NCBI GenBank assembly: GCA_903851195.1
Contig: CAINNJ010000038.1
Span: forward strand, 124,001-188,000
Direction of reading: 5' to 3'
Source: an uncultured Acidobacteriia bacterium
Lineage (GTDB): Bacteria > Acidobacteriota > Terriglobia > Bryobacterales > Bryobacteraceae
DNA: 64,000 bases
Both the position numbers and the translations under genes were made by a program. Positions 4,165 through 64,000 of the stretch are shown piece after piece (positions within the stretch are counted from its first letter, which is position 1; each line of letters opens with the position of its first letter). The notes under the pieces were generated by a model that made no database searches, was not told the DNA's origin, and worked only from the letters and a program-made list of their open reading frames with translations.

Positions 4165-4802
4165 ACTTCGGGCACAGGCAGTCCCGAATGCGGCACTCCC
4201 GAATGCATGCGGGGGCCGGGCTCCTGCGCGGCGAGGATCTTCGCTTCCTCGGCGAGCAACTGCTCCCAGCGCGCATTCGCCACGGCACGGCCGGAAATCT
4301 TCTGCGCCAGGCGCAGGAACACTTTGTAGTGGCCCATTTCCGAGGAAAACAACGCTTTGTAGAGCGCGGCCAATTCCTCGTCTTCCGCGTGCGCGGCCAG
4401 AACGGCGAAGCGCTCGCAGGACCGCACCTCGATCAGGGCCGATACCAGCACGCGGTCCATTGCCTCGTTCTGCCCGCCCAGGCGCACCAGGGTTCGCAGG
4501 GTTTTCGCATAGGCATTGCGGTGGCCGCGTCCGAGCCGCCCGCCGCGCCGGGTCAGAATGCGCGTCACCTGCGACAGATGCGCCGCCTCGTCGCGGGCCA
4601 CGCCGGTCATCGTTTCGATCCAGCCTGGCAGCCACTCGCCGGGCCAGCGCGTCAGCAGTTCGATCGCATTCTGCGCCGCTTTCTTTTCGAGGAAGGCATG
4701 ATCGATCAGCAGTGCGATGGGGTCCGCCAGCACCGCGCGCGCCCACTCGGGCGGGGTTCGCGAATGGACAGGTAAACTCTCGGCTTTTTCGAGTAACGAC
4801 AC
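4149..4802 (-). CDS. miaE: tRNA-(ms2io6A)-hydroxylase MiaE-like diiron protein
   Basis: 217 residues, the usual length. The ferritin-like diiron ligands can be followed: E39 in LIDHAFLEKKAA, E72 and H75 in ARDEAAH, E125/E130 in EVRSCERF, and E155 with H158 in SEMGHYKVF. The family hydroxylates the isopentenyl group of 2-methylthio-N6-isopentenyladenosine at tRNA position 37, after MiaA and MiaB, neither of which lies here. The start is a GTG at 4802 with AAGGA directly adjacent, an unusually short spacing. Between it and the co-oriented sialidase gene lies the hairpin repeat array. The 3' end overlaps the repeat-protein gene tail to tail. Confidence 0.88.
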   Translation of the reverse strand: MSLLEKAESLPVHSRTPPEWARAVLADPIALLIDHAFLEKKAAQNAIELLTRWPGEWLPGWIETMTGVARDEAAHLSQVTRILTRRGGRLGRGHRNAYAKTLRTLVRLGGQNEAMDRVLVSALIEVRSCERFAVLAAHAEDEELAALYKALFSSEMGHYKVFLRLAQKISGRAVANARWEQLLAEEAKILAAQEPGPRMHSGVPHSGLPVPEVYSTP

Positions 4803-4812
4803 TCCTTTGAGA

Positions 4813-4980
4813 TTAGCGGACCTTGTCTGGCTTTAGCGGACCTTGTCCGCGGTCTGGCTTTAGCGGACCTTGTCCGCGGTCTGGCTTTAGCGGACCTTGT
4901 CCGCGGTCTGGCTTTAGCGGACCTTCTCTGGGTTTAGCGGACCTTGTCCGCGGTCTGGCTTTAGCGGACCTTGTCCGCGC
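4813..4980. repeat. 27-bp hairpin-forming tandem repeat array
   Basis: Four full 27-bp units (4833-4859, 4860-4886, 4887-4913, 4934-4960) and three shortened ones (4813-4832, 4914-4933, 4961-4980). Each full unit contains the perfect inverted repeat GCGGAC-CTT-GTCCGC. The last unit is the coding end of the sialidase gene (ADKVR plus stop on the minus strand), so the array looks like repeated copying of the gene's own 3' end into the gap before miaE. It resembles REP-type palindromes and could act as an RNA hairpin stabiliser or weak terminator. Confidence 0.85.
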
Positions 4981-55698: not shown

Positions 55699-58092
55699 TC
55701 ATGAACACGACTCCTGCTGCTTCAATGCAGCCTCACTAACTTTGTAGCCCATATCAGCGTAACCTTTCAGTCGGCGATCATACATTCGAACCAGCATCCG
55801 AACATTCGGATCGACGTAGTCGTATACCTCAACTGTGCGTTTTGCGTCGTGCAGTCGGTGCAGGCGACCAACGTACTGCTGCAGTGTGCCTTTCCAGGAA
55901 ATCGGCATAGCGAGGAACAGCGTGTCTAGCCGTGCGTCGTCGAATCCCTCGCCAATGTAACTGCCCGTGGCGAGGATGACGCGCTGCTCTGTTTCCGGAA
56001 TCGACGCCAGTTGCTCCGCCAGCGCCCGACGCTGCTTCTTCCCGAGACCGCCTTTCAGAATCAGAATATTTTTTACGAGTCCAGTTAGCTTTTCCGCAAA
56101 GACGGCGAGATGTTCTGTGCGCCCGGTCAAGAGAAGCGGCGAACGGCCGGACAGCACAGCACGGGTCAGATCCGACGCGATCAACTGATTACGGGCACCG
56201 TCGCCCACGAGGCCGGCATAAACTTCCTGAATCGTGATGTCGTCGATGCCGTCACCCATCCGGAAATCGGTCGTTCGCGGTATCACAACGTGTTCGAAGG
56301 GAGTCGATTCCGTCATCGTCCGGGCGCTCATCCGGTACCGAATCGGTCCACATTGCATGTAGATGATCGGGTGGTGACCGTCTTTGCGCGTTGGCGTCGC
56401 TGTCAGCCCGACGACATACTTCGCTTTCACCTCGCGGAGCACTTTCTCGAACGTGACCGCGGATAGATGATGACACTCATCCACGACGACGTGGCCGTAC
56501 TCCGCAACAAGGTCCTTGACCACATGATCGTGGTAAAGGCTCTGGATCACGGCAACATCGAGCCTGCCCGACCGTTTTGTGCTCCCGCCGCCAATCTGGC
56601 CGATCTGATCGATGGGCAAGCTCAGAAACATCGCGAGCCGTTCGCGCCACTGGTCAAGCAGTTGTTGGCGGTGGACAAGGACGAGCGTTGACACGTTCCG
56701 GTTCGCGATCAGCCAGGCAGCTACAGCGGTCTTTCCAAACGCCGTCGGAGCGCATACGACTCCATCGTCGTAAGCGATAACCGCCTGCACCGCCTGTATC
56801 TGCTTATCTCGCAGGGTGCCATGAAATCCGAAGTTCACGTCCGGCCCGGCGTAGCGTTCATCCCGCAGGTTGGGCTTGATCGAATGACTTTCGAGAACAG
56901 CGGTTAAGTCCGCCAAGCAACCACGAGGAAGCGCGACAAACCCGGACACATCTTCACCGCAGAAGATGACACGAGGCTTTCCGTACGTCGAAAGACGCAT
57001 CGACTGGGTCCTGTAAAACTCCGGATTCTGAAATGCGGCGATGCGAAGCACCCGGTTCAACATCGCCGGCGGAAGTCCGGCCTTGTCAACATAAATCAGA
57101 TTCGACCGAACGATGTTAACGGTCTTCGGAAAAGGACCCTGTATCTTTTTTGCTGATCCGCTTTTTCGTGAGGGTGGTAGTGTCCACGGGTCGGGCTCAC
57201 CTTCATCGTCGGTCGTTGTGGTTCGAACGCCGATGAGGTCGCCTTTGCGAAGAACCTCCGCAACCACGGCTTCAACGGCCGACGCACTGATACGTTTTAC
57301 AGAAGCAAGGAAGGCCCACTGATCCGACCAGGGCTCAAAGCGGCTATCGAGGAACACGCTGTTCCCTGCTTCGCGTGGAACCTTCTGAAGAGGAAGCGCG
57401 ATGAGGTTGCCGAACCCGCCCTTTGGCATAGTGTCCTGATTCGGAAAAAGCCGGTCATAAGAGTCAAGCCCGATCTGGTGGCGGCGCTCCATGGCACGCG
57501 TCAGCAACGCACAGCCGAGTTTTCGCGCAAGCAACGCCGAAACTGAGTTCTCGAAGAAGATCCAGATGTGACCACCCTTGCCCGAGCGTGATCTTTCGAG
57601 CACAGCGGGAATGTTCCATTCTGAGCAGGACTCAAGAAATGCCTGACAGTCTTCCTGCCACGTTGTCTTATCGAAATCAGCAGCCAGCAACCAACAGCTT
57701 TCGTCTCGCAGTAAAGGGTAGATTCCCACGGTAATCTCGCCCTGCAGATGGGCTCGGATTGCCTCGTCGGTTAGCGGGACATGCTTGCGCGTTTCGCGGT
57801 CTACTCTCTGGCGTTCTTCCGGCCGGGCAGCATACCAGGCCTTCCAGTCGCGATCTGACTTCGGCGAGTATCCTTTTCTGCCGTCCGGGCTCTCCCACCT
57901 CACAGCATAGACGTCGTCACGGCCTCGAAACAGTTCGCGAAATAACCGGATCTTCGCCTCCGGCGAGAACCGTCGGGGTTCAAGGGTTTCAATGAGGACG
58001 GGGGGATCGGGTGGAATTTCAATTCCATTCCTCGTGAGCAGTTCACGGAGGCGACGGTTCTCGTCCCGCAGTCTCCCAAGGTCGTCACCCAT
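55699..58092 (-). CDS. TOTE-type archaeo-eukaryotic primase fused to SF2 helicase
   Basis: 797 residues. A coiled-coil start (LGRLRDENRRLRELLTRNG) leads into a primase domain at about 40-320 with catalytic acidic motif LLAADFDKTTW and LERSRSGKGGHIWIFFE (sxH), then DSYDRLFPNQDTMPKGGFGNLIALPLQ. The helicase occupies about 430-780: Walker A APTAFGKTAVAAW, motif II VVVDECHH, motif III GLTATPTRKDG, motif VI QQYVGRLHR. The family is tied to TOTE conflict elements. It follows AbiEii with a TGATG overlap, so it is translated from the same mRNA. It probably acts on foreign or replicating DNA; this is inference. Confidence 0.87.
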   Translation of the reverse strand: MGDDLGRLRDENRRLRELLTRNGIEIPPDPPVLIETLEPRRFSPEAKIRLFRELFRGRDDVYAVRWESPDGRKGYSPKSDRDWKAWYAARPEERQRVDRETRKHVPLTDEAIRAHLQGEITVGIYPLLRDESCWLLAADFDKTTWQEDCQAFLESCSEWNIPAVLERSRSGKGGHIWIFFENSVSALLARKLGCALLTRAMERRHQIGLDSYDRLFPNQDTMPKGGFGNLIALPLQKVPREAGNSVFLDSRFEPWSDQWAFLASVKRISASAVEAVVAEVLRKGDLIGVRTTTTDDEGEPDPWTLPPSRKSGSAKKIQGPFPKTVNIVRSNLIYVDKAGLPPAMLNRVLRIAAFQNPEFYRTQSMRLSTYGKPRVIFCGEDVSGFVALPRGCLADLTAVLESHSIKPNLRDERYAGPDVNFGFHGTLRDKQIQAVQAVIAYDDGVVCAPTAFGKTAVAAWLIANRNVSTLVLVHRQQLLDQWRERLAMFLSLPIDQIGQIGGGSTKRSGRLDVAVIQSLYHDHVVKDLVAEYGHVVVDECHHLSAVTFEKVLREVKAKYVVGLTATPTRKDGHHPIIYMQCGPIRYRMSARTMTESTPFEHVVIPRTTDFRMGDGIDDITIQEVYAGLVGDGARNQLIASDLTRAVLSGRSPLLLTGRTEHLAVFAEKLTGLVKNILILKGGLGKKQRRALAEQLASIPETEQRVILATGSYIGEGFDDARLDTLFLAMPISWKGTLQQYVGRLHRLHDAKRTVEVYDYVDPNVRMLVRMYDRRLKGYADMGYKVSEAALKQQESCS

Positions 58093-58922
58093 CAGGATCC
58101 CCCGGCTTGCCTCAGTTTCCCGACTACATCGCGAAAACGAACTTCGATGGCCGCTGGGGTCGTGATCGGAAATTCAAGTTCTTTTGCCAGCGACTCGAGT
58201 TCCGGATACCACTCGCGAGGAAACACAATCCCTGGCGGGAATTCATGTGTGGCACGTTCGCGAAAGATCCGCCGGGATGCTTCCGCCGCCGCTGCATAGT
58301 CTAATTCGGACAGCAGATCGACCAGCAGGATATCCAGCACGTCCCTTGCTCGGCCCGCGGAGAAAGGGCCGGTGCAGGCGTGTAGCTTTTGAGCGATCTG
58401 CTCCGCGAGGTTCAGACAGCGAACAGGAGAGACTATCGGTATGTTCAGCTCCAGCAGACCTCGGACACCTGGTTCGATCAGGTCGATCTGTTCGGAGGAG
58501 GCCGGTCCCAAATCTACCTCGATCGTCTGCCAGGATCGCGTTCGGTACTGGACCGAGACCTGAACGCGGATGGTATCAGCCTGTTCCATGTCCCGGGTCT
58601 GAGCTTTAACGCGGAACGTGAACTGATCAAATCCGAGGCGCAGCGCCGCAGACAATGCCTGAAGCCGACCTGCCCGGGTGCCTTCGATTCCGAGGTCAAG
58701 ATCTTTCGTGGCGCGAGCACGTTGCGCAAACCGCAATTCCATGGCGACGCCGCCTTTGAGATAGTAGCCGCCGAGAACGCTTTCTGAAAGGGCTCTTTCC
58801 AGCACTCCGCACAAAGCCAGAAAGGAAACCCACCGGCGTAATCTTTCCTGATCGATACCCTGTTCTCTGGCGACGCGCGCCAGCCGTTTCTCGAGTCTTT
58901 CTGTTGGTCCTGGAAGAGTCAT
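58092..58922 (-). CDS. abiEii: AbiEii/AbiGii family nucleotidyltransferase toxin
   Basis: 276 residues. The nucleotidyltransferase core is YYLKGGVAMELRF followed by RATKDLDLGI (GG and DxD-type metal ligands), with the third Asp likely in IEVDLGPAS. The family motif LAEQIAQKLHACTGPFSAGRARDVLDILLV follows. In characterised AbiE systems the enzyme transfers nucleotides to tRNA or a similar target and arrests growth until phage abort. ATG overlaps the AbiEi stop (ATGA) and its stop overlaps the helicase start. Confidence 0.9.
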   Translation of the reverse strand: MTLPGPTERLEKRLARVAREQGIDQERLRRWVSFLALCGVLERALSESVLGGYYLKGGVAMELRFAQRARATKDLDLGIEGTRAGRLQALSAALRLGFDQFTFRVKAQTRDMEQADTIRVQVSVQYRTRSWQTIEVDLGPASSEQIDLIEPGVRGLLELNIPIVSPVRCLNLAEQIAQKLHACTGPFSAGRARDVLDILLVDLLSELDYAAAAEASRRIFRERATHEFPPGIVFPREWYPELESLAKELEFPITTPAAIEVRFRDVVGKLRQAGGS

Positions 58923-59539
58923 GCTTCGCCTGGTTCCATTTGCGTCGGGTGGCTACTCTGGCGTAGCGCAACAATATGGCGCTCGACCTCACGGCGGAGA
59001 GTTCTTGCTTCCGCGGCATCGATATATCCTTCGCGTCGGGCATCCGAAATGGCCTGTCGGATCAGATCCAGGCGGGCGCCGGATTCCAGCAGATCGCGAA
59101 CGGTTCTGCTGACCGTTGTGACCGGAACCCCTTCGTGAATTGCGATGTCTTTGGCTTCCAGATCGCTCTGGTGAAGGACGATACCCTTGGGGTGCTCGCG
59201 TCGAAGGCGTGCGGTCCGGGGGACAGTCAAGTGGATGACGTCGGGACTTGCGTCGGAGATTCCGTAGACGCTGAGCGCGGAGGCGTGGGAGATCGCCACT
59301 TCCTGAGGCCCGCGGTTGGCTTTCGCCCACAGCACGATCTCAAGATATTGCGAGAAGCGGCCCGCGTTGCGCCAGGGGATCCGGTATACGCCTCGCGCGG
59401 TGCGCTCAATACGACCTCGTTGGACGAGGCGGGCGAGAACTGAGTCGGTGAATCCGGAGTGACGGGCCTGTCCTGCCGTCACGAGCCCGTCGTGCTCTTC
59501 GGCCATCAAGGCCAATTCCTCAAGACGCGATCGCGGCAT
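58919..59539 (-). CDS. abiEi: AbiEi antitoxin and operon repressor
   Basis: About 206 residues. An N-terminal winged helix (RLEELALMAEEHDGLVTAGQARHSGFTDSVLARLVQRGRIERTARGVYRIP) and the C-terminal antitoxin domain (VAISHASALSVYGISDASPDVIHLTVPRTARLRR; IHEGVPVTTVSRTVRDLLE) match AbiEi. ATG 59539 is preferred: a promoter -10 overlaps the other ATG at 59551, and its transcript would start about at 59540, giving a nearly leaderless mRNA. The family neutralises AbiEii and represses its promoter through inverted repeats. Confidence 0.9.
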   Translation of the reverse strand: MPRSRLEELALMAEEHDGLVTAGQARHSGFTDSVLARLVQRGRIERTARGVYRIPWRNAGRFSQYLEIVLWAKANRGPQEVAISHASALSVYGISDASPDVIHLTVPRTARLRREHPKGIVLHQSDLEAKDIAIHEGVPVTTVSRTVRDLLESGARLDLIRQAISDARREGYIDAAEARTLRREVERHIVALRQSSHPTQMEPGEA

Positions 59540-59542
59540 AGC

Positions 59543-59575
59543 CAATATCATTCCATAATTGAACTATATTGACAA
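59543..59575 (-). promoter_or_regulatory. abiE promoter with inverted-repeat operator
   Basis: Minus-strand TTGTCA (59575-59570), 17 bp, AATGAT (59552-59547). Inverted arms CAATAT (59543-59548) and ATATTG (59566-59571) are separated by 17 bp and bracket the promoter core, the layout expected of an AbiEi operator. Confidence 0.55.
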
Positions 59576-59766
59576 GCCCTCTCGTGCCTTCCCACCGACA
59601 ACCGCAGGGCCGGGAGGTACATCAGCAGTTCGGGACCGAGGACGTTCAGTAATGCCGCCAACGGCATCATTTGACATCGGTTACAGGTATGGGCCACCGT
59701 ATCATAACCGGCGCTGGCAGAGCATCCGGAGTCGGGTAAACAGTTGAGGATATTGAGGAATCGGGA

Positions 59767-59788
59767 TTTTGATACGGTTTTGATACGG
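59767..59788. repeat. tandem 11-bp repeat, possible arm-type site (right)
   Basis: Two perfect copies of TTTTGATACGG end to end, 158 bp inside the right tRNA fragment; 21 of 22 bases match the left tandem at 55621-55642. Confidence 0.6.
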
Positions 59789-59946
59789 CGGGTTCAGCCC
59801 GGAAAACGACACGGACTGCAACGCGATGAATCCAATGCATTTCTGCTCAGGGACAAGGGAGTTTTTTCTCAACGCGACTGCTCGAAAAGCAGCCGCTCCG
59901 CCGCTCCGGTATTAGGGGTACCGATACCGCATAAACTACTGAAAAC

Positions 59947-59993
59947 AATGGTGGGCGCGCAGGGACTCGAACCCCGGACCTCCTGCGTGTGAA
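59947..59993 (-). repeat. tRNA-Val(CAC) 3' fragment, right attachment-site copy
   Basis: Identical to 55457-55503 over 47 bp, again beginning at anticodon-loop position 32 and ending past the CCA (59949). The 5' half is missing, so this is an internal junction between two elements rather than the functional tRNA gene. Confidence 0.85.
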
Positions 59994-60208
59994 TTCATCA
60001 TTCATCCCCTATATTGCTGATTCTTTTAGCCGCCACCTCCTGTTTGTTCGGCCTGTTCGCATCTCTCCGGCGCTTAACGCACAACATTCTGAACAACTTT
60101 TTGCCAATGAGACCGGAAGGCGAGTGTGTCGCGTGAGAACCCGCTTTCCTGTGGTTTGGCGCGATCGCGTCCCTCTCGCAAGCTGACCAAACGACCCGGA
60201 GTATCGCA

Positions 60209-61144
60209 ATGCTGAAACATGCGGGTACGTGTGTCCGTGAACTGTTTCCGGACGACCTCCTGATTCCTCCGCCTTCCTCAAGTGTCCTCGGGAAGGCTGA
60301 GCAGATCGAATCCATACGACGGCGGCGTGACACCCAGGACCAGGATGTCTCCTTCGGCGCCCGACCGTTCATACTGTGCGGACTCCCCATTCGCCGACTG
60401 CCGCCTCAAACGCTGAAGTATTCGCGCCGGAACGGACGGTTCTTGCTGGAGATCGTGGGGCATCCTGAATACGGCGTGCCGTTTGGGCAGGACCGGCTTG
60501 TCCTGCTGTGGCTCGCCACCGCCGCCGTCCGCCAGAAGAGCCCGGTGGTGCGGTTCGGCAGCGCCGCCGAAATTCTGGTCGAGTGGGGAATGCAGACCAA
60601 TGGATCGCATTACCGGCGGTTGCATGACGCATTCCGCCGGGTCTTCGGCAGCACGATCTTCTTCGGAACCAAAGACGACCTCCGCGAAGCCGAAGTATGG
60701 AACTGCAGCCGTGGCCACTTCTTCGATCAGATGCGGCTCTGGTTTCACAAAGAGAACTCCACAGGCGGAAAGAAGGGAGAGAATACAGTCACACTTTCCC
60801 CGGCATTCTGGGAGGAACTCAGGACCCATCCAATACCGGTCGATACGGAAGTCGTGCGGGCGCTGGCGAACAATCCCGGATGCCTCGACTTGTACACGTG
60901 GCTGACGTGGCGGTGCTATCAGGCCAGAGATGTCCAGCGGATTCCATTGTTCGGTCCGATGGGACTGGGGAGTCAGTTGGGTGTGCAGGACTACGCGAGG
61001 GAGCGCAAGTTCCGGGAACGGATTCGCCAATGGCTGGAGTTGGTTCGCCTTTGCTGGCCGGAATGCCCGGCAGTCGTGGCGAGCAACGGAGCCTTTCTGG
61101 AACTGCACCAGGCAACGGCTGTGCGGGAGAAACGCGGAGCATGA
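60209..61144 (+). CDS. RepA_C-type plasmid replication initiator
   Basis: 311 residues. Characteristic RepA_C segments are PFGQDRLVLLWLATAAVRQKS, FGSAAEILVEWGMQTNGSHY, VTLSPAFWEELRTHPIPVDTEVVRALANNP and LDLYTWLTWRCYQA. The family initiates replication of broad-host-range plasmids by binding origin DNA; no iterons are seen nearby. Its presence right after the tRNA fragment suggests an integrated plasmid-like element. The stop overlaps an ATG as ATGA, followed by a disturbed small frame. Confidence 0.8.
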   Translation: MLKHAGTCVRELFPDDLLIPPPSSSVLGKAEQIESIRRRRDTQDQDVSFGARPFILCGLPIRRLPPQTLKYSRRNGRFLLEIVGHPEYGVPFGQDRLVLLWLATAAVRQKSPVVRFGSAAEILVEWGMQTNGSHYRRLHDAFRRVFGSTIFFGTKDDLREAEVWNCSRGHFFDQMRLWFHKENSTGGKKGENTVTLSPAFWEELRTHPIPVDTEVVRALANNPGCLDLYTWLTWRCYQARDVQRIPLFGPMGLGSQLGVQDYARERKFRERIRQWLELVRLCWPECPAVVASNGAFLELHQATAVREKRGA

Positions 61145-61394
61145 ACTCGAAGCGGGTGTTTGGCAGAGGCGGCGTTCCTGCGGGTGCTGCTACCCGGCGT
61201 TCCGGCCTGCAAAGGCGCGGTGTCGGATCTGTGAATGCCGGAAACGCATTTCCGATGGAGACCGTGCCCTCGATAGTCTGGTCCACTCGACCCTCGCTTT
61301 GCACAAACTGGAAATCGTGTATTTCAACCGAGGGAGTTCGGTCCGCTCGATGCGTTTTCTCTCCGGCCCGCTGTTTACTCACCGACTTGCCTGA
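61141..61394 (+). pseudogene. possible small zinc-ribbon ORF, perhaps frameshifted
   Basis: An ATG at 61141 is coupled to the repA stop, but the protein-like frame is another one, ending at 61394: CGCCYPAFRPAKARCRICECRKR (Cys cluster), then DSLVHSTLALHKLEIVYFNRGSSVR. That frame has no good start codon of its own. A one-base indel near 61155-61165 would join them. It could instead be noise; the family is not recognised. Confidence 0.35.
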
Positions 61395-61508
61395 GACGGC
61401 GGCCGGAACGGATGGCTCAGTCTGCGAGCCGGAGAATTTTCGGGACCGCCCGGCAATGCTTCTGTATGAAAGTAGACACCGTCCGACCCATTTCAGTAAG
61501 CTTGACAG
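61395..61508. promoter_or_regulatory. gap before the CARF gene with TTGACA
   Basis: A TTGACA at 61502-61507 may be a -35 for the CARF gene; the matching -10 (GATTTT after 17 bp) is poor. If used, transcription would start inside the frame and ATG 61611 would be the true start. Nothing else is seen in this short gap. Confidence 0.3.
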
Positions 61509-62639
61509 TTGACCGAATCCATTCGATTTTCATTCGCTGTCGGCATCGGCATTCTGACTCACTGGGTAACCACCAAGCTTCATACTCTAGTTCGGTATCT
61601 ACAGGAGAATATGGGTTCCGGATTCGCTCAATCGCTGCCGTGGGCGGTCGTGGCTGAGTTCGCCGGCGCCTCAATGTTCATCATTATCTGTCTGACCGCC
61701 AAGGGCGTTCTTTACAAACGGTATCGCCAGGCGGGTCGTTTCGCCGTGATGGGCCTTGTCGCAGTGCAGTACCTCGGAATTGCGACTGTCGAACCTCCGA
61801 AGGGTGCTGTCGAGATCCTTGCAGTAATTGCTATGTTGGCCGTCATTTTTTGGCTCTACAGGAAATTTCACGTCCTGAAGATCCACATTGGAGACAACCT
61901 CCAGTCCACATTCGACGTCAAGCGGGAACAAGCGCCGAAACCGCGACCCGGCATGGTTTTGTTCCTGAGCTTCCTTACGGGAAGAAATGCTGAAAATCGG
62001 CTGGACTTCGCCGGAAAGCCAACTCGCGTCCTCAGCGCCGGAACGAACGAGTACGAAGATCATCCAGACTGGACACGGTACAGGGAGCACATCCTGGAAC
62101 TGGCGCGGAGCCTCGGACAAAACGGTGCGGGTTCAATTGAAGACGCGGGATTGCTCAAGCCGTTCGGCGCTTTCAATATTCGGATGCCCCTCGAAGCGAT
62201 TCGATCACAACTAGCGGCCGGTGCTTTGAAGCACATCGTTTTGATTTCCTCGAAAGACAGCAAGAGGCGCGAAAAGGATTCAATCCTCCGGGAACAGCCG
62301 TATACGGGCAGTGGCGGCCAGACAGAATTTTTCCGGGAAGTGTATCGCGAAGTGTTTTCGCCCTTGTGCGCCCGGTTGCCGGAGATCGAAGTAACGGACC
62401 CTGCCGATTTCGAAAACGAGGAGGAGATATCCCAAGCAATCGAACACGCCCGACGGCTACTGAAAGCCGGTGGAGCGAACCACCATTACGTGGACATAAC
62501 AGGCGGACAGGCCATATGCTCCATTGTGGGGGCGGTCCGCTCGCTCGGGCGGGAGGAAAGGTGCCAATACATCAGCACGCGAGATTATAAACCGATCGTT
62601 TACGATTTCGTCGTCGAGGCCCCGCCGGAAATTGGGTAA
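61509..62639 (+). CDS. membrane-anchored CARF-domain protein (type III CRISPR accessory)
   Basis: 376 residues from TTG 61509, or about 342 from ATG 61611 (AGGAG 3 bases upstream). Three or four hydrophobic helices fill residues about 8-130 (AVVAEFAGASMFIIICLTAKGVLY, FAVMGLVAVQYLGIATV, EILAVIAMLAVIFWLYR). The cytosolic rest is a CARF fold: VLSAGTNEYEDHPDW, MPLEAIRSQLAAGALKHIVLISS, and the ligand-loop motif HHYVDITGGQAICSIVGAV. CARF domains bind cyclic oligoadenylates made by Cas10. The layout recalls Cam1, whose membrane part depolarises cells. No nuclease motif is seen. It ends antisense to a RAMP gene with 40 bp overlap. Confidence 0.75.
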   Translation: MTESIRFSFAVGIGILTHWVTTKLHTLVRYLQENMGSGFAQSLPWAVVAEFAGASMFIIICLTAKGVLYKRYRQAGRFAVMGLVAVQYLGIATVEPPKGAVEILAVIAMLAVIFWLYRKFHVLKIHIGDNLQSTFDVKREQAPKPRPGMVLFLSFLTGRNAENRLDFAGKPTRVLSAGTNEYEDHPDWTRYREHILELARSLGQNGAGSIEDAGLLKPFGAFNIRMPLEAIRSQLAAGALKHIVLISSKDSKRREKDSILREQPYTGSGGQTEFFREVYREVFSPLCARLPEIEVTDPADFENEEEISQAIEHARRLLKAGGANHHYVDITGGQAICSIVGAVRSLGREERCQYISTRDYKPIVYDFVVEAPPEIG

Positions 62640-64000
62640 ACGGGCTTTCGCCAGAAAGCGCGGGCCATCTTCATGGCAGCGGGGCGCTCTTTCGGATCGC
62701 GGCTCTGATTGGGAACAGGCAGCCAGGTGTAGTCGCGGAAATTAACGGGGTAAGCGCAAACCCTTGATTCCGCCGGCAACGTATGAAGTGCCCGGAAGTC
62801 ATCGAGATGGTCTTTGGGTCCCGGAGCCGTCAGGAATGCCTGGCGATACTCACCACGTATGGACGTCTTGTCTTCCAGGCCGTCGCCGCCAGTAAGGCTT
62901 CGGTACCGGGCTCCGTAGTTGAAGAGCTTCAGCGCTTCGACTTTGGGCTGAACAGTGCCAAGGCCGCGGGCTTTGGCCTTTCCGAGTTTAATGCCATGAG
63001 TGTACGTTCCGTCGCCCTCCAGGACGAAGAGCAGTGCGCCGAGTTCTTGCGGGGTGAGGTTCTCAAAGTGCACCTCGCAGGTAAAGGACGTGCCGGCCTT
63101 GAGTGCCAGGAGAGGGGGTGGACATTGGTCTGCAACGTTCTCATGGAACACAGTGTCGTAACGGTGATACTTCCAGACCGGGCCGTCCGACGGTTTCTGA
63201 TGCCAGTAAAACTTGCGTCCCCGTAAGCTCACATTGGGGTCGTCGAAAGAGAGTGATTGCGCGGCTGGTTGATTGTCCGCCTGTTTGAGGTAAAGCGGAC
63301 GCGCCTTGGCACGTGTCTCCGGCGCCGTGAGCGGAGCCAGTTCCAGCCGCATGCCCTGCTCGGAGGTCCATTCCGCCGGGCCGGGCCAATTCTCTTCCTC
63401 ACGGCAGGAAAGAGCCGCCGGCCCCCATCCCGTCGTAAACCTTACCTTGCCTCGGAAGGGATGGCTTACGATGTTGCCCGCGGCGTCATGCTTGTGCTCA
63501 CCCGCAAAACCGAAAACGCGCTCGGCGAGGCTGAGGTTCTGCTCCAGGGATCGCTGCACTAAAGGATAAAACTTCCAGCAGAGGTCACCAACCGATTGAC
63601 TGGCTGGCCACATGTAGTTGACATTCTTGCCGAACGTGGTGATCGTCAAGTTGCTCGACGTGAAATAGATGAGGGTGCCCGGGGCGAGCTCGGCCAGTTC
63701 AGCCATCACGACCGGAAACAATGGCAGGGCCTTGTAAGGCCGCTTTGCGGGGGTGAGACTGTTGCTTTTATCGTAATGCTTTCTGTAATGCGGACTCTCC
63801 AGATTCGCCAGGTAGTCGCTCACGACCTTGCCTGGAAGCACGAAGGTTTCGCCGGGTTTTGTCAGGACGGTATGCGAATACTTATGCTGTCCTTTTTCTT
63901 TCCCCGAGGCGGGCGGCTGGTTGAGCAGGTTGGCGCGATAGGGGCGGGCATCTTCGGCGGCGACAACGCCGGTGCCCGGCTCGGCAATCTTCTTGAATCC
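62600..64000 (-). CDS. CRISPR-associated RAMP protein (TIGR03986-like), 5' end beyond window
   Basis: The frame is open from 62600 to the edge (about 466 codons); a GTG at 63841 is internal, since upstream codons read on as coding (PYRANLLNQPPASGKEKGQHKYSHT). Features: FGKNVNYMWPASQSVGDLCWKFYP, RVFGFAGEHKHDAAGNIVSHPFRGKVRFT, and the RAMP-like glycine loops FVLEGDGTYTHGIKLGKAKARGLG. This resembles a large RAMP family found in type III-like CRISPR loci. It would form part of the Cas7/Cas5-like backbone. Other cas genes should follow to the right. Confidence 0.75.
   Translation of the reverse strand, partial: GFKKIAEPGTGVVAAEDARPYRANLLNQPPASGKEKGQHKYSHTVLTKPGETFVLPGKVVSDYLANLESPHYRKHYDKSNSLTPAKRPYKALPLFPVVMAELAELAPGTLIYFTSSNLTITTFGKNVNYMWPASQSVGDLCWKFYPLVQRSLEQNLSLAERVFGFAGEHKHDAAGNIVSHPFRGKVRFTTGWGPAALSCREEENWPGPAEWTSEQGMRLELAPLTAPETRAKARPLYLKQADNQPAAQSLSFDDPNVSLRGRKFYWHQKPSDGPVWKYHRYDTVFHENVADQCPPPLLALKAGTSFTCEVHFENLTPQELGALLFVLEGDGTYTHGIKLGKAKARGLGTVQPKVEALKLFNYGARYRSLTGGDGLEDKTSIRGEYRQAFLTAPGPKDHLDDFRALHTLPAESRVCAYPVNFRDYTWLPVPNQSRDPKERPAAMKMARAFWRKPVYPISGGASTTKS

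Follow-up and report, generated by a model that had tools for sequence, protein, structure and literature searches.

The window analysed here, a stretch of 64,000 nucleotides (C38:124001-188000), ends 8.6 kb short of the end of its contig, and towards that end it carries a gene for a putative membrane protein with a C-terminal CARF domain (hereafter CARF-TM). The features of this gene and of its neighbour are as follows:

61509 to 62639, plus strand: CARF-TM gene, an open reading frame of 376 aa with a TTG start
61518 to 61574, plus strand: candidate TM1, residues 4-22, weak, hydropathy maximum 1.05
61644 to 61700, plus strand: TM2, residues 46-64, hydropathy maximum 2.07
61734 to 61790, plus strand: TM3, residues 76-94, hydropathy maximum 1.46
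61803 to 61859, plus strand: TM4, residues 99-117, hydropathy maximum 2.28
61944 to 62621, plus strand: CARF domain, residues about 146-371
62490 to 62510, plus strand: VDITGGQ motif, residues 328-334, with Q334 at the position of Cam1 K160
62568 to 62579, plus strand: YIST, residues 354-357, with Y354 and T357 aligning with the cA4-contacting Y180 and T183 of Cam1
62600 to 64000 and on to C38:189026 outside the window, minus strand: TIGR03986 type III RAMP gene, 808 aa, the 3'-most gene of a type III-D operon

The first-pass annotation had noted an adjoining type III RAMP gene, and this is the TIGR03986 gene, which is convergent with the CARF-TM gene and overlaps its 3' end by 40 bp. It belongs to a minus-strand operon that continues past the window and encodes Cas10 (552 aa), a 228-aa RAMP, Csx10, a double Cas7-type RAMP, Csx19 and the TIGR03986 RAMP, all of them open and full length. 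Csx19 (TIGR03984, 1.7e-14) and TIGR03986 (1.5e-62) match above their cut-offs, Cas10 is matched by PADLOC at 4e-54, and the Csx10 match (1.3e-13) falls under its cut-off. With Cas10, Csx10, Csx19 and Cas7-type RAMPs, the neighbouring locus is a type III-D CRISPR-Cas system. The CARF-TM gene stands outside the operon and convergent with it, and the 13.6 kb of the III-D locus up to the contig end show no further effector candidate. On the plus strand the cas operon is followed by an AAA-Csx3 gene and then by a CRISPR array, with repeats of about 36 bp, that reaches the contig end. The AAA-Csx3 product (L002 11961-13109, outside the window) has a P-loop and, in the C-terminal half, Csx3-like motifs that may form two Csx3-like repeats (PF09620, 9e-4, under cut-off). 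Elsewhere in the same genome, contig C50 carries a Cas1 gene and contig C60 encodes a second, type III-B Cas10/Cmr2 with GGDD (566 aa; C60:37607-37996, L070), and messengers may be shared across the two loci.

Profiles from Pfam and NCBIfam gave no qualifying match to the CARF-TM protein and PHROGs gave none. PADLOC profiles matched it as 'TM+CARF' (1e-18), CARF8--CARF_TM (6e-18) and CARF_2M (5.5e-12), PDLC01053 spanning residues 104-368 and PDLC01168 residues 99-361. An AlphaFold2 model built with nine sequences reaches pLDDT values of about 70-92 at most positions between residues 221 and 370, and VIA-align of the predicted domain returned the CARF domain of Cam1 as the best structure (8t66_A; Z 13.6, rmsd 2.4, 142/155 residues). 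Ranks 1-39 were all CARF or CARF-related, with Csm6, Crn1, Cdn1, Can2, Card1, Cami1 and Csa3 after Cam1. Foldseek E-values for the model are by themselves not significant (best 0.05), and the fold claim rests on VIA-align together with the sequence profiles; a family profile of 19 sequences also has Cam1 as its best PDB sequence (E 6.3e-6). Membership of the CARF superfamily, with a Rossmann-like fold and the D-x-T-[GS]-G motif, is firm and far beyond chance, and the first-pass reading of a CARF domain with a VDITGGQ loop is upheld by both the profiles and the fold. In addition to Y354 and T357, the cA4-contacting S75 of Cam1 corresponds to S154, a match that rests only on its place after the first strand, and K160, essential in vivo in Cam1, is replaced in the alignment by Gln334. 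No enzymatic domain was detected in the protein, in agreement with the first-pass annotation, which had seen no nuclease domain.

The number of membrane helices depends on the start codon. The TTG at 61509, directly 3' of an in-frame stop at 61503, is without a clear ribosome-binding site, and promoter prediction 5' of the gene gave no good call; an alternative ATG at 61611, with AGGAG 3 bases upstream, yields 342 aa without the first helix, and the choice between them sets four versus three helices. Kyte-Doolittle hydropathy maxima (19-residue window) give three clear helices, 2-4, and a weaker helix 1, and AlphaFold2 run on residues 1-145 by themselves predicts four (3-35, 45-68, 70-91 and 98-140), with a low mean pLDDT of 61.5, in line with the three or four helices first proposed. 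With nine sequences the pLDDT is again low across much of the membrane part, and the model is too uncertain for helix packing to be read from it. Positive charges lie at the N-terminal R, in KRYRQAGR after helix 2 and in YRKFHVLK after helix 4, a pattern that would fit four helices with both termini cytosolic under the positive-inside rule. TM1, with its 'GILTH', resembles the first helix of two four-helix relatives (p 0.027 by shuffling for L060, 0.097 for L058) and not that of L041 (p 0.80), and in the control for L060 one out-of-frame translation scored equal or above (34 vs 28); this likeness is weak evidence, and the first helix is the least certain of the four. A protein starting at ATG 61611, made up of a two-helix CARF core plus one helix, is a possibility that we consider doubtful. 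The ribosome-binding site, the low hydropathy of TM1 and its weak similarity to other four-helix members speak for it; against it stand four clear helices in three relatives of the same layout, the 33-residue first helix that AlphaFold2 predicts in the isolated segment, and the charge pattern. This alternative concerns architecture and is compatible with a gated-effector function. Duplication of a hairpin, with TM1-2 as a copy of TM3-4, found no support with hhalign (TM1-2 against TM3-4, p 0.16; TM1-2 against the hairpins of two-helix members, p 0.26); TM3-4 matches the two-helix hairpins weakly (p 0.01).

Scans with the single protein of genome contigs, viral contigs, plasmids and phages found no close relative, an alignment scan of viral contigs found no relatives, and a single-sequence scan of 396 genomes of the phylum gave one weak match. 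Profile searches recovered 19 other loci, from Acidobacteriota, Aquificota, Campylobacter concisus and a MAG labelled Hyphomicrobiales; two of them, L039 and L040, are strains of one species and both are counted. Ten lie by cas10/cmr2 (L007, L008, L031, L032, L033, L039, L056, L058, L059 and L061) and five by other CRISPR genes:

L036: cas6 and cas1
L037: an adjacent CARF2 CARF-HEPN gene
L040: cas6 and CARF-HEPN
L055: RT-cas1
L060: cas6 and cas1

The remaining four (L030/L034, L035, L042 and L057) have no CRISPR genes in the available surrounding DNA, L042 and L057 being at contig ends. The association of the family with CRISPR is therefore strong (15/19), and the homologues near cas10 that the first-pass annotation proposed to look for exist, rather than lying consistently away from type III loci. 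An AAA-Csx3 gene is also found 76 bp from the relative L058.

The hydrophobic part is kept throughout the family. In most relatives the CARF domain is preceded by two helices, and four are found in other Acidobacteriota proteins (L041/L003, L058 and L060). In these proteins the catalogued 2-TM+CARF profiles cover the CARF domain and the pair of helices next to it and leave unmatched about 77-119 N-terminal residues with two further helices, and TM4 of the window protein aligns with the last helix of these profiles. Read from the sequences, the window protein, L041, L058 and L060 are the known 2-TM+CARF core with an added N-terminal hairpin.

Among characterized proteins the closest is Cam1, which shares a CARF domain without nuclease, an N-terminal membrane part, a type III setting and equivalents of S75, Y180 and T183, and is the nearest solved CARF by both fold and family profile. 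NhCam1 consists of one 24-residue helix, a short linker and a CARF domain in 206 aa; its CARF dimer binds cA4 and it forms a tetrameric pore, with depolarisation and growth arrest as the outcome (PMC10808066). Its N-terminus is simpler, as the first-pass annotation had it, and with three to four helices, 376 aa and Gln in place of K160, as against a single helix and about 206 aa, the window protein is not Cam1. The PADLOC entries CARF8--CARF_TM, CARF_2M and 'TM+CARF' (PDLC01947, PDLC01168, PDLC01053) describe the same CARF domain and last helix, and every one of the 19 sequences in the family alignment (A6) matches PDLC01053 and PDLC01168. These profiles match the window protein over the CARF domain and adjoining helix; however, the catalogued core has exactly two helices, whereas here there are three clear and one weak, and in this protein, L041, L058 and L060 about 80-120 N-terminal residues, the extra hairpin among them, fall outside the profiles. 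Cap1, a cA4-opened tetrameric pore of a type III system with two helices per subunit, likewise has more than one helix per subunit, but carries a divergent, four-fold symmetric CARF-like domain and DUF4579, in contrast to the conventional, Cam1-like CARF domain here (PMC12642688). DUF4579 was absent from the Pfam scan at E<=10, and Cap1 was absent from the structure matches, an absence that excludes nothing. Csx23, Cam2 and Cam3 are also type III membrane effectors or candidates, but none has a CARF domain as its soluble part: Csx23 has its own cA4-binding fold, Cam2 a REC domain and Cam3 a helical one (PMC11014256, PMC11229360). Cam2 and Cam3 were considered as relatives and rejected on this ground (PMC11229360). 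A literature search found no description of a four-helix CARF effector, with an earlier listing in the main CARF classification (Makarova 2020) possible. The two-helix CARF-TM form is already catalogued, and the extra N-terminal membrane hairpin is the new part relative to characterized proteins.

What, then, is the role of this protein? We consider it likely to be a cyclic-oligoadenylate-gated membrane effector of the type III-D system, Cam1-like in action, as the first-pass annotation had suggested; the CARF fold, the type III-D locus and the CRISPR association of the family support this, while ligand, oligomerisation, pore and toxicity are inferred. Upon meeting foreign RNA, the crRNA-guided complex would trigger Cas10 to make a cyclic oligoadenylate, most likely cA4, which would bind the CARF dimer interface on the cytosolic side. 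The signal would then pass via the short linker after TM4 to the four-helix (possibly three-helix) membrane domain, which as an oligomer may open a pore or otherwise disrupt the membrane, such that the cell is depolarised, growth stops and phage multiplication is blocked. Removal of cA4 could then fall to the Crn3-like AAA-Csx3 protein encoded nearby. These steps derive from the protein families; observed here are the CARF fold, the hydrophobic helices, the lack of a detected enzymatic domain, the III-D setting and the CRISPR association. Crn3 acts on cA4 as a ring nuclease, and ring nucleases occur in 81% of Cam1 loci (PMC12409355). The ligand is probably cA4, because Cam1 uses cA4 and a Crn3-like AAA-Csx3 gene is present both here and beside L058.

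Several observations count against a gated effector, namely the replacement of K160 by Gln, the position of the gene outside the operon, the low AlphaFold2 confidence in the membrane part, the missing promoter call, the TTG start with no clear ribosome-binding site, and the Cas10 active site. In this Cas10 (L002 10131-11789, C38:193131-194789) AGED replaces GGDD and the first-palm DGDG is kept. The system could accordingly be dying or silenced, its cyclase inactive and the CARF-TM protein a leftover or a responder to the type III-B Cas10, which has GGDD; the convergent orientation of the effector gene would suit this. Yet every operon gene is open, relatives have GGDD, SGDD or GGDE at the cyclase site, and D-to-E at the third position retains the carboxylate, a change tolerated in related GGDEF cyclases. 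With two acidic residues and DGDG retained, cyclase activity is plausible from the sequence, and we regard silencing as distinctly unlikely. Less probable still is a membrane-anchored ring nuclease or signal sink, whose CARF domain would break down or sequester the messenger while its helices serve just as an anchor. Many CARF proteins do act as ring nucleases, and the VIA-align matches include Crn1 structures (Z about 10-11.6), but the best match, Cam1, is an effector, a separate ring-nuclease-like AAA-Csx3 gene is already at the locus, and four spans, in a family that keeps its hydrophobic part, are more than an anchor needs.

The gated effector remains the preferred reading, and the different channel class that had been raised is not established, as the window protein is the catalogued two-helix core with a hairpin and the channel itself is inferred. 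In a bolder reading, the four-helix CARF-TM proteins found in Acidobacteriota would make up a distinct channel gated by cyclic oligoadenylate, or else a membrane module that is gated, ion-selective or regulated; the hairpin would build a separate pore wall or gate, and the mechanism would differ from that of the pores of Cam1 (one helix) and Cap1 (two helices). This seems to us rather unlikely. Few type III membrane effectors are characterized, among them Cam1, Cap1, Csx23 and CorA, and an effector that joins a CARF domain to a larger membrane part would illustrate how one sensor is coupled to different membrane outputs. The window protein, L041, L058 and L060 provide a concrete set to compare with the two-helix form.

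Directly 5' of the CARF-TM gene lies a RepA-like plasmid replication gene (60209-61144, plus strand; PF04796, 1.8e-11), a hint of an integrated plasmid or mobile island. No Rfam match was found in window positions 59000-64000. Further upstream on the minus strand are an AbiEii toxin/AbiEi antitoxin pair (58092-59551; PF08843, 2.8e-18, and PF13338, 1e-12) and a 797-aa TOTE conflict-system protein with archaeo-eukaryotic primase and helicase (55699-58092; PF22548, 3.5e-93), the latter placing the CRISPR locus near other defence or conflict genes. At the other end of the window, positions 4786-4979 hold head-to-tail copies of TTAGCGGACCTTGTCCGCG-type units at a spacing of about 27 bp.
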